Positions 42,835 through 51,591 of a stretch of 64,000 bases of DNA are shown here, piece after piece. A model generated the notes under the pieces. It did no database searches. It saw nothing but the letters and a program-made list of their open reading frames with translations, and was not told the DNA's origin. Positions within the stretch are counted from its first letter, which is position 1. Each line of letters starts with the position of its first letter. This stretch comes from Terriglobia bacterium (GTDB lineage: Bacteria; Acidobacteriota; Terriglobia; UBA7540): the NCBI GenBank assembly GCA_020073545.1, contig JAIQEZ010000001.1, positions 33,430 through 97,429 on the forward strand. The letters run 5' to 3'. Both the position numbers and the translations under genes were made by a program.

Positions 42835-43311
42835 CTAGAGGTTCAGGAGATACTCGGAAGCCGTCAGGTTTCCAAAGCGCACCGTGTTGACCCGCTCACC
42901 CACGACATTAGCAAAGTACTCAAGAATGGCAGTCAACTTCAAGGCGGCCGACGTTTCGCGCAACCTCAGCCAGTGGCGCGTGATGAGGGAAACAAAAACC
43001 AACTTGAAGTAAAGGATCAAGAGACGCTCTTCGTAGCTGTAGCGTTGGTTGACGTTGGCAGCGTTTTTCAGGAGATAAGTGAGAGCCAGGAAGTCACACT
43101 TGAGCGTCAACATGAGCCGTGGGTATTCAACCGGAACGCCGAAATCCTCCAGCGCCTTCCGAACCGACGGGAATTCCAATCGATTAGCGTTGACGATCGC
43201 TTGGAAATACTCCTGCGCAAACTGCCGCCGCAGTACCTTCTGGCAAACAGCCTGCATGTAAAAGAAAAAGAGCCCCGTCGACAGGATCAAGATCAGGGCG
43301 GCCATAAACAT
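42835..43311 (-). CDS. Membrane-anchored hypothetical protein (158 aa) in peptide/7TM cassette
   Basis: N-terminal TM MFMAALILILSTGLFFFYMQAV then soluble helical domain; 21 nt after 7TM-like gene. Confidence 0.65.
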   Translation of the reverse strand: MFMAALILILSTGLFFFYMQAVCQKVLRRQFAQEYFQAIVNANRLEFPSVRKALEDFGVPVEYPRLMLTLKCDFLALTYLLKNAANVNQRYSYEERLLILYFKLVFVSLITRHWLRLRETSAALKLTAILEYFANVVGERVNTVRFGNLTASEYLLNL

Positions 43312-43332
43312 GTTCCACCTCTACGCAGCTTG

Positions 43333-44067
43333 CTAGTCAGCAATAGCCTCAGCCAAGGCAGCATCCTCTCCAGCCCGCGAACGGGCCGGAGCTGCCTGCG
43401 GCGTCTTCCCGATGGCATAAACCCAGATCAATAACATTCCCAGCGTACATGCGGGGTTCAAGAAGTTGAAAAGCAGACGCGCGAAATTCTCCCCCAGAGT
43501 CACGTGGTACAGCGCCAAGGCAGCGGCCTCGCCCGCAAATTGGACACCGATTCCGCAAACCAGCAGTCCGAGTTCGTCGTCATCAATCGCGAGCTGCTGG
43601 ATCATCACGTAAAGCAGGGTATTCAGGACCAGGCAAGTAAAGTAGAGGTTCTGGCTGAACTCAATAATGAATGATGTGAAGAGTTGTGTATAATTGCGGG
43701 TAAGGGAAAGAGCCGAGATTGCCCCGACCAGGACGAAGACCAAGAAAAGCAGGAGGCGAACGAAGCGCCACAGCTTCTCCTCCCGCGCGCAGGCACGCTG
43801 GAAGAAGCTGCAGATCACCAAAAAAGCGCCCAGCGCCAGAACGACGTCCGTCAGCCAGTAGAAATAGGCGTATTGCACAGACGTCCGGCCGAAATAATTG
43901 AGCACGGCGGGGCGCGCGACCCCGTCCAGACCAAACAGCAGCGTCACGTATAAGAACAGGCCTTTGAGGTGCCGCCACCCTCCTCGCGCAGCGAGCAGCA
44001 CGCACACTCCCGCCTCCAGAATGTAGATTCCGTATTGAAGGCCGTGGATTAGGATCTGGTCGCTCAT
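43333..44067 (-). CDS. Hypothetical 7TM-like membrane protein
   Basis: About seven hydrophobic segments (GIYILEAGVCVLLAA; LFLYVTLLFGL; WLTDVVLALGAFLVICSFF; LLLFLVFVLVGAISAL; LYFTCLVLNTLLYVM; etc.). Confidence 0.7.
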   Translation of the reverse strand: MSDQILIHGLQYGIYILEAGVCVLLAARGGWRHLKGLFLYVTLLFGLDGVARPAVLNYFGRTSVQYAYFYWLTDVVLALGAFLVICSFFQRACAREEKLWRFVRLLLFLVFVLVGAISALSLTRNYTQLFTSFIIEFSQNLYFTCLVLNTLLYVMIQQLAIDDDELGLLVCGIGVQFAGEAAALALYHVTLGENFARLLFNFLNPACTLGMLLIWVYAIGKTPQAAPARSRAGEDAALAEAIAD

Positions 44068-44132
44068 GCGCGTCACGGAAACGTCCGAACTACTCGGTTG
44101 CTTCCGCGTCGTTCATCTCGACCGGAAGCAAC

Positions 44133-44297
44133 TTACTTCATCGGCGGCAATGGTGCCGGGGATCCGCCAATGCCTAGCGCTTTCATCGGGGGCAGCGGCG
44201 CCGGGGATCCACCAATGCCGGCGACACTCTGCCGGGTCGTAACAGTGCTCAGCATTACGAATAACGCCAATAAAAATGCTAGAAAGAAGTTCTTCAT
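44133..44297 (-). CDS. Unannotated 54-aa secreted-peptide-like precursor with two tandem GIGGSPAPLPPMK repeats
   Basis: MKNFFLAFLLALFVMLSTVTTRQSVAGIGGSPAPLPPMKALGIGGSPAPLPPMK*; RBS ggaggagag just upstream; six synonymous and zero non-synonymous differences between repeats. Confidence 0.75.
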   Translation of the reverse strand: MKNFFLAFLLALFVMLSTVTTRQSVAGIGGSPAPLPPMKALGIGGSPAPLPPMK

Positions 44298-44348
44298 GGG
44301 CTCTCCTCCAGTTGTGCAATCGTGAATGAGGGGCTAACTGGCGGGAGA

Positions 44349-44376
44349 GCCTATCGCATTACCTAGTGAGTGTCAA
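44349..44376 (-). promoter_or_regulatory. Candidate promoter for peptide/7TM cassette
   Basis: Minus-strand TTGACA-N16/17-TAGGCT ending about 50 nt before the ATG. Confidence 0.4.
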
Positions 44377-44750
44377 TATGTTTCTTTGCACTACTCCGTC
44401 CCCTTGCATTTTGGCCAACAGGGGCCAATTGTCAAGCGAAATCTACGAATTCCGGGTACCGCTCTTTACTTACACACCCACTCTAAAAGCCGCCCTGCAC
44501 TTTGGCAATAGTACGGGGGTACTAGTGGTCAGCACGCACCCCCGGCACCCCCGGCAGGGGCACCACCTCGAATCTGGCGCTGGTCAGGACTGTGGGCGAG
44601 GGAGGGCGGAGGCGTCGGGCTCGCGGGACTGCGTGGAAGGCCAGGCTTGACATGGCCCTCTACCAGATCTACCGCCCCCTCGTATTGACCCGACCGGGCA
44701 TGAGTGGCATTATACATACTCAGAGTTCAGGGCAACGCGGAGTGTGCGGC

Positions 44751-49872: not shown

Positions 49873-50004
49873 ATGCTATGACGTAACGGGGGATCCCATC
49901 TTGGGGCGAAGAGCCCCTCGCCCCCTTTCCCTCTGCTGCCGCGGCCGAAGGTCCACCGATCTTGATGGCGGGCGACCGAGGGGAGCATTGATTGGGTTTT
50001 ACTG

Positions 50005-51591
50005 CCCTCGCCCCCTTGGAGGCTGTCTCAAAACTCGATGGTGGCAGACGAAATGCTCAGCGAGAGGTCATGAGCCAAGCGATACGAGCCGACTACGAGC
50101 AGATGGATTTGTTGCCGCAATCTTTGGAAGAGTGGGTACCTGCGGATCATCCGGCGCGCTTCCTGCGGGAGTTTGTGGACGCTCTGGATTTGGCGGAGTT
50201 GGGCTTCCGGCCACGGGAGAGTGAGGAAGGCCGCCCGAACTACGCCGCCGATCTGCTGTTGAAGGTGTGGTTATACGGATACCTGGCGCGCATTCGGAGC
50301 ACGCGGGAGTTGGAGCGGGCGTGCCGCGAGCACCTGTCGCTGGTGTGGCTGACGGGGCGGCACGCACCCGATCACAACACGCTGTGGCGGTTCTGGCGGG
50401 AGAATTCGCGGGGCGCTGCGGCAAGTGTTTCGCGCCGGGGTACGGGTGGCGGCCGAGCAGGGTCTGGTGGGGATGATCTGCCACGCCGTGGATGGGACGA
50501 AGATTCGGGCGGTGGCGTCGCGGCGGACGGTCGAGCACCGTTCGGATCTGGAGCAGGCGTTGGGGCGTGTGGAGGCCTCGATCGCGGAGATGGAAGCGGC
50601 GGTGGAAGCGGCGGAGGAAGAAGCCACGGGCGAGTACCGGCTGCCGGAGCGGTTGCAGGAGGCGGAGCAATTGCGGGAAGCGATTCGGGCCTCGCTCGGA
50701 CGCATGGAGGAAGTGGAGCGCGAGCATCTGCATCCGGGCGAACCGGAGGCCCGGCTGATGCCCTGCGAAGGGCGCACCGAACCGGCCTACAACGCGCAGG
50801 CGGTGGTGGACGCGCAGGCGGGGATCATCGTAGCGGCAACGGCGGTGAATGCGGAATCCGACAACCAGCTGTTGGTGCCCATGCTGGAGGAGACGAAAAC
50901 GAACCTGGGCGCGGTGGCAGAGGAAAACGTGGCCGATGGAGGATACTCCTCGGCGGCACAGTTGGGAGAGGCGCAGGCGCGCGGTTATGAAGTGCTGGTG
51001 GCGCGGGGGGCGGAGACGGGCGGTCCGGATCGCGGGGCGTACGACAGCTCCCACTTCGAATATGACGCGGAGCGGGATGAAGTCATCTGCCCGCGCGGTG
51101 AGCGGCTGCAGTTCGAGGGTAGGGAGAACAAGGGTCCGCATCGTCCGGCGGTGCGCCGCTATCGTTGCCACAGTTATCAGGAGTGTCCGGTGCGGGCGCT
51201 GTGCAGTCGGGGCAAGAAGGGGCGGCGGATCGAATGGAGTGCGGAACACGAGGCGGTGAGGCGGCAACGGAGCAAGCGGCGCGATCCGGCCAAGCAGGCG
51301 CTGCTGCGGCAGCGCAAAGTCATCGTCGAGCCGGTGTTCGGAATCTTGAAACAGGTAGAGGGCTTCCGGCGCTGGACGGTGCGGGGACTGGAAAATGTTC
51401 GGACGCAGTGGGCGCTGCTGTGCACCGCTTATAACCTGAAGAAGCTTTGGAAGGCGGGCCGACGTTCGCAGGGCCCCTCAACCCGCACCCCGCGCGCCGG
51501 GAAACCCGCACCCCTGTCACGCTTAGGCCCAACACCTCTCCCTCACCTCAGCTACGCCTGAGTTCTGAGACGGACTCCAGAGGGGCGAGGG
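50005..51591 (+). mobile_element. IS1182-like insertion sequence (~1.6 kb)
   Basis: Imperfect terminal inverted repeats ccctcgcccccttggaggctgtctcaaaactc vs revcomp right end ccctcgcccctctggagtccgtctcagaactc; encloses transposase. Confidence 0.85.
50070..51561 (+). pseudogene. IS1182-family transposase, frame disrupted near 50410
   Basis: [31 protein letters not shown]...[15 protein letters not shown] in one frame continues as [34 protein letters not shown]... in +1 frame at a GGGG run. Confidence 0.85.

Follow-up and report, generated by a model that had tools for sequence, protein, structure and literature searches.

A conserved Terriglobia cassette pairs a repeat-peptide precursor with a seven-helix membrane protein: a candidate peptide-signaling system

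The 64,000-nt stretch of Terriglobia DNA analyzed here (the window) raises a simple question: what is the role of a short repeated peptide encoded immediately ahead of two membrane protein genes? The Acidobacteriota rank among the most abundant bacteria in soil, and no peptide signal described for them turned up in our searches of the open-access literature.

A two-repeat peptide precursor precedes two membrane protein genes

The smallest gene of the cassette, which falls under many annotation length limits, is a 54-aa open reading frame (ORF) on the minus strand (44133 to 44297) that reads MKNFFLAFLLALFVMLSTVTTRQSVA-GIGGSPAPLPPMK-AL-GIGGSPAPLPPMK-stop. All cassette features given below are on the same strand. 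The hydrophobic leader, MKNFFLAFLLALFVMLSTVTTRQSVA (44220 to 44297), would serve as a signal peptide or membrane anchor; the S-V-A ahead of repeat 1 is compatible with a signal peptidase I site, and cleavage of the leader is predicted at this point. Peptide copy 1 (44181 to 44219) and copy 2 (44136 to 44174), both GIGGSPAPLPPMK, are 13-codon units that differ at six codons, all synonymously. The ATG is preceded by a ribosome-binding site, GGAGGAGAG (44301 to 44309), and a purine-rich element is kept at this position in precursor homologues. Beginning 65 nt downstream, an ORF for a 244-aa seven-transmembrane (7TM) protein runs from an ATG at 44067 to the end of its stop codon at 43333 (a GTG at 44076 is a possible start), and 21 nt past it begins the ORF for a 158-aa protein (43311 to 42835) with an N-terminal transmembrane (TM) helix followed by a helical soluble domain. 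A previous sequence-only reading of this locus had described exactly this arrangement, including the sequence ahead of the precursor ATG, both spacings, and the identity of the six codons, and each of these details was borne out. No second copy of the precursor was found in the draft genome from which the window comes (5.28 Mb in 261 contigs).

The precursor and 7TM genes form a conserved unit within the class

Homologues of the 7TM protein were present in 50 of 101 relatives and, by profile search, in 184 of 399 genomes of the class. Matches were few in a phylum-wide sample, with only three, all weak, outside the class, and when ~85,000 species genomes were scanned with a single conserved peptide pattern, matches came from Acidobacteriota only. 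The sequence-only reading had made its proposal depend on a small ORF being conserved upstream of 7TM homologues, and such an ORF was found there: by our own count, a leader and peptide precursor lie in front of the 7TM gene at ~75 of 80 Terriglobia loci with enough upstream sequence. A strict automatic precursor filter was passed by 60 of 92 7TM loci, and those that failed are mostly contig-end truncations or single-copy versions. Among ORFs of 30 to 260 aa from 90 unique loci, a background of 1.06 Mb of related loci rather than a whole genome, 59 of 10,839 combined a hydrophobic N terminus with an exact 9-aa internal repeat. All 59, including that of the window, stand in front of a 7TM homologue, ~1.1 kb upstream of it at one locus (L124) and at most 0.8 kb upstream at the others. 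The genes that flank the cassette vary by clade (purH, a VWA-domain protein, and selA in gp13; other sets elsewhere), and because they differ, the conserved unit is the cassette itself.

In the precursors upstream of the 7TM genes, the short Pro-rich peptide is present 1 to ~10 times, and several clades have a single copy. Examples are GIGGTPAPIPPM (three copies), IGTSPVPMPPN (three), IGSAPAPMPPHATMAL (five), NGGAPLPPTPWK (three), and NTSSPVPVTPW (four), and the repeats in the divergent family f5 include ISPLPPPDPWGDGLS (eight to nine), HGLTPPPKDYDGFE (five), and AAGPWPFPDDSAGGNI (three). Within this family, genome G260 carries a pair of cassettes whose peptides differ, HGPVRPPGGGTNIVA (L279) and HGPDGDPGGDGNF (L280). 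Leaders in family f5 resemble classical Sec signals. The gp13 leader is conserved as M[KR]NYxLxxLLALLVVL..V.LR.., in which the hydrophobic stretch is followed by basic residues; judging from this sequence, it could act as an uncleaved anchor.

Several loci depart from this organization. Five 7TM homologues (L271, L272, L273, L277, and L283) had no detected upstream precursor and are candidate solo receptors; two of the solo 7TM genes (in genomes G207 and G139) contain an in-frame stop. At L141, the leader upstream of the 7TM gene is intact and the frame then runs into non-peptide sequence, possibly reflecting a frameshift, a pseudogene, or an assembly error. Elsewhere in the window, an ORF on the plus strand (49992 to 50990) has an N-terminal part that by eye resembles an IS-element transposase.

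Peptide cores are held constant while their linkers drift

Repeat copies within each precursor were compared by a codon test based on the wildcard motif xGxxPxPxx, in which the variable positions are free to differ; we chose this motif over a codon count on exact repeats, which is biased. Across 49 precursors with 158 copies, the core had a pS of 0.491 and a pN of 0.014 (dN/dS of 0.018), compared with a pS of 0.476 and a pN of 0.201 (dN/dS of 0.31) for the linkers; some bias toward identity remains in these values because the precursors were first chosen for containing a repeat, and the contrast between core and linker is one within the same genes. The G and both P residues are imposed by the motif itself, and at the free core positions 3, 4, 6, and 8, we counted ~15 nonsynonymous versus ~173 synonymous differences. 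Linkers between exact copies differ in length too. Silent sites have thus diverged while amino acids stayed fixed, and the copies are therefore old and the spacers relaxed. This copy pattern is the one expected if identical core products are released, and it supports the earlier suggestion that the peptide product is under selection. Between species, the peptide changes rapidly, with 45 distinct cores among the 49 precursors.

The 7TM protein co-varies with the peptide

An AlphaFold2 model of the 7TM protein is a 7-helix bundle (pLDDT of 84.7, pTM of 0.78), and its loop charges suggest a topology with the N terminus outside and the C terminus inside. Its matches in the PDB are mostly GPCR or rhodopsin bundles and are nonsignificant (best Foldseek E value of 0.036, TM score of ~0.5); with no significant structural match and no Pfam match, the protein was assigned to neither the GPCRs nor the microbial rhodopsins. 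No histidine kinase domain was found on the 7TM protein, which has a short tail and no Pfam domain, or on the 158-aa protein. Near-invariant residues include G60, S63, Y66, Y70, D74, Q139, Y142, W215, and Y217, several of which would face the outer half of TM3 and TM5, where they could plausibly form a site for a PxP peptide. By our own averaging, variability in the outer halves of the helices exceeds that in the inner halves only slightly.

In partial Mantel tests, which can be anticonservative and were run in two clades, peptide distance was correlated with 7TM distance given the third protein (r = 0.40, n = 28; r = 0.36, n = 44; P = 0.0005 each). The reverse control, which related the third protein to the peptide given the 7TM protein, was not significant. 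Together with the conserved adjacency of the two genes, this correlation supports the dedicated membrane partner that the sequence-only reading had envisaged. In gp13, evolution of the 7TM protein outpaces that of the third protein (mean distance of 1.01 versus 0.58), which is not the case in the gp2-type clade.

A third, membrane-anchored protein is frequent in the cassette

The 158-aa protein is likely to be a partner or transducer of the 7TM protein. Its AlphaFold2 model has a pLDDT of 80.5, and a Foldseek search with this model returned no fold match. Nearly all gp13 cassettes have a protein of 157 to 163 aa downstream, in which a helical domain accompanies a single N-terminal TM helix. 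In gp2/Acidiferrales cassettes, a candidate equivalent of 132 to 139 aa has a similar layout, and its gene usually overlaps the 7TM stop codon by 1 to 4 nt, often as ATGA. The gp13 and gp2-type proteins are probably equivalent, and an hhalign comparison (probability of 47, E value of 2e-4) is only suggestive of homology. Since no third protein was found in family f5, we regard the gene as frequent and not universal.

Two paralogues of the 158-aa protein stand alone elsewhere in the window's own genome, at L203 (ORF at 139 to 616 nt downstream of the palindromic motif described below) and at L213 (at the locus end). Each lies ~140 nt downstream of the palindrome, which is exact in L203 and has one mismatch in L213, and neither has a precursor or 7TM gene within the stretch read.

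A palindromic promoter is linked to the cassette

Three promoter-like sites lie upstream of the precursor. A distal sigma-70-type promoter, TTGCCA-N17-TAGAGT (44480 to 44508), is directly downstream of an operator-like palindrome, GTAC-CCCC-GTAC (44511 to 44522), which is centered at about -43 of this promoter and belongs to an exact motif, RGTACNNNNGTACYRTTG, at 44506 to 44523. A middle site, TTGACA-N16-CAAAAT (44408 to 44435), is resembled by GCTTGACA...TGGCAnAAT at other gp13 loci. The proximal site, TTGACA-N17-TAGGCT (44348 to 44376), lies ~50 nt upstream of the precursor ATG and is kept in gp13 as TATTGACTT in 8 of 22 loci and as TAGGCTCTC in 8 of 22. On the plus strand of the window, a divergent promoter-like sequence, TTGACC-N17-CATTAT (44685 to 44713), faces the neighboring VWA-domain gene.

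GTAC-N4-GTAC occurs in 37 of 57 cassette upstream regions, compared with 0.5 expected. Alignment of 39 cassette sites gave the consensus RGTACN4GTACYRTTGACC-N17-TAnnnT, in which TTG is present in 37 of the 39 sites and the -10 positions T, A, and T are present in 31, 32, and 34, respectively; a palindrome centered near -43 occupies an activator-type position. In one gp2-type genus, 31 genomes contain 26 exact sites (a reversed-pattern control gave 1), of which 20 are at the cassette, or 21 when a truncated contig is counted. This linkage of motif and cassette suggests autoregulation.

In the window's own genome, we found 7 exact sites, whereas our own base counting gave an expectation of ~0.3. 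Besides the site at this cassette, there are sites ahead of a stand-alone 158-aa paralogue and of genes for N-methylated pseudopilins and M23 peptidases; for two sites, no clear target was evident. Across the gp13 family, 34 sites were listed, compared with 3 in controls, and these also precede genes for a CHASE3-PAS sensor, DUF4382 proteins, a subtilase, a pro-kumamolisin, and another pseudopilin. (Palindromic-promoter sites are at L203, L204, L205, L207, L208, and L209 in the window's own genome and at L215 to L240 in the family.) Because only some of these targets recur across species, a candidate gp13 regulon of exported and surface functions under the GTAC-N4-GTAC promoter is suggestive only. 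Loci of gp2/Acidiferrales (e.g., L114, L117, and L128) have another conserved element, GGGTGTGTACCGTTTAGACACA, downstream of the palindromic promoter and ahead of the precursor, which is a possible further regulatory site.

An Rfam scan of the cassette 5' leaders found no RNA family other than nearby tRNAs, and RNAalifold found no conserved structure besides the palindrome in 26 leaders. A riboswitch was dropped on these grounds. A hairpin after the 158-aa gene was no better than shuffled sequences and was rejected as a terminator.

Signaling, interference, and structural readings of the cassette

Taken as a whole, the cassette is probably the genetic unit for a peptide signal together with its membrane partner; the peptide would be exported, processed, and sensed by the 7TM protein. 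The hydrophobic leader would take the precursor into the membrane or periplasm, where proteolysis would free several identical peptides of ~10 to 12 residues from their variable linkers; the peptide released from the window's precursor would be I-G-G-S-P-A-P-L-P-P with short ends. The co-encoded seven-helix inner membrane protein, its N terminus in the periplasm, would then recognize the peptide, and this receptor would pass its state inward to a putative regulator, with the co-transcribed single-TM protein of 158 (or ~133) aa as the relay in many lineages. The predicted output includes activation of the GTAC-N4-GTAC operator promoter that drives the cassette itself, so that positive feedback of the quorum-sensing kind would arise. 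Other genes of subgroup 13, mostly for exported proteins, have this promoter as well, and pseudopilins, M23 murein hydrolases, and secreted proteases may be under its control. More tentatively, at slightly less than an even chance, we propose that this is a class-wide, autoregulated quorum-sensing system resembling yeast mating pheromones, consisting of a multicopy prepropeptide, a stand-alone, kinase-less 7TM receptor, a membrane-anchored partner, and the GTAC-N4-GTAC promoter.

A peptide-signal system is the most economical reading, and readings as immunity, accessory subunit, or arrest peptide carry lower weight. Sequence comparison itself establishes the conservation of the cassette, the selection on the peptide, its co-variation with the 7TM protein, and the promoter motif; export, cleavage, binding, and signal transfer are inferred from these. 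In favor of the signal reading, we also count the faster evolution of the 7TM protein in gp13, its receptor- or rhodopsin-like (nonsignificant) fold matches, the genome whose two cassettes encode different peptides, and the apparently orphan 7TM proteins. Against it, we count the lack of a dedicated exporter, processing protease, or DNA-binding regulator encoded within the conserved cassette, the anchor-like gp13 leader, the nonsignificance of the fold matches, the possible anticonservatism of the partial Mantel tests, the single-copy clades, the gp2-type 7TM protein that is not faster evolving, and the outer helix halves that are only slightly more variable.

The best placed of the alternatives, though an unlikely one, is that the peptide is an antimicrobial or interference agent, with the 7TM protein (together with the 158-aa protein) providing immunity or export. 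In keeping with toxin-immunity pairs, the peptides differ by species and co-vary with an adjacent, fast-changing membrane protein. Short, uncharged, Pro/Gly-rich cores are nevertheless atypical for membrane-active bacteriocins, as is generally known, and a comparison of clade neighborhoods, whose flanking genes vary, found no modifying enzyme, ABC exporter, maturase, or peptidase conserved beside the precursor. We favor signaling over export or immunity because the cassette-linked activator-type promoter points to autoregulation, which fits autoinduction better, although bacteriocins can be autoinduced too.

Ranking below this, and improbable, is a structural or accessory role in which the uncut precursor is a small Pro-rich periplasmic subunit of a 7TM complex. 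The gp13 leader could be a plain TM anchor, and both the variable copy number (1 to ~10) and the co-variation of the peptide with the 7TM protein would be compatible with such a subunit. Linkers that are free in sequence (dN/dS of 0.31) and in length while the cores are frozen argue against it, as do the classical-looking signal peptides of family f5, and many identical copies are hard to square with one stoichiometric subunit. A SecM/MifM-like nascent chain, in which a Pro-rich arrest peptide controls translation of the downstream membrane protein gene, is suggested by the position directly upstream of that gene, the hydrophobic N terminus, and the Pro-rich C terminus but is very unlikely, given that arrest motifs need one C-terminal copy with conserved key residues, that the precursors have up to ~10 copies whose variable core positions differ from one species to the next almost throughout, that the 7TM start lies tens of nucleotides off, and that no known RNA family is present.

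If the signaling reading is true, the cassettes predict a cell-cell language and directly supply, for many species, peptides that can be synthesized and the receptors that match them, along with a bacterial 7TM receptor that lacks any known output domain and a defined reporter promoter. Even as an immunity or accessory system, they would constitute a widespread gene family that has no database entry.

Comparison with known systems

Searches of Pfam, NCBIfam, and PADLOC with all three cassette proteins gave nothing above cutoff, so that no PADLOC model places the cassette among anti-phage defense systems. No relevant paper on such a cassette was found in the open-access literature, subscription journals and preprints being mostly outside this search. 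The earlier suggestion that the system is possibly undescribed thus holds, and we rate the cassette as new because there was no match in curated families or in this literature and because no tested family includes it.

The nearest membrane protein family, the MAB_1171c family putative transporters (NCBIfam NF042915), is also multipass, and 1 of 41 7TM homologues matches it weakly (E value of 0.005, far from family significance), whereas the other 40 have no match. Multicore RiPP precursors, for example of the cyanobactin type, likewise have a leader followed by several core copies, as is generally known, but the cassette has no conserved modification enzyme or protease nearby and no match to a RiPP family model.

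Closer in design are peptide pheromones. The cassette precursor is under selection for its peptide sequence, its export is predicted from the leaders, and it is encoded with a membrane partner that co-varies with it. Gram-positive peptide quorum-sensing systems (Agr, ComCDE, Phr/RRNPP, and ComX) similarly are known for a small precursor gene adjoining that of a polytopic membrane protein, a hypervariable peptide that co-varies with its partner, and an autoregulated promoter. Unlike them, the cassette lacks a histidine kinase domain, a response regulator, an AgrB-type protease, and an ABC exporter, its precursor is multicopy, and its hosts are Acidobacteriota rather than Firmicutes; its third protein is a single-TM helical protein with no match to a TPR or HTH family, which sets it apart from RRNPP members. 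In the fungal alpha-factor prepropheromone and its receptor Ste2, again from general knowledge, a leader precedes tandem identical Pro-containing peptides separated by variable processing spacers, and the peptide diverges between species along with its 7TM partner. The cassette differs in being bacterial, in having adjacent genes, and in showing no KEX2/STE13-type sites and no G proteins, and its 7TM protein is unrelated to Ste2 in sequence (no Pfam match), with weak fold resemblance only. The cassette belongs to none of the known families against which it was tested, and its proposed design resembles alpha-factor/Ste2 or Gram-positive quorum sensing; if signaling is confirmed, it would represent a new kind of system within peptide signaling.
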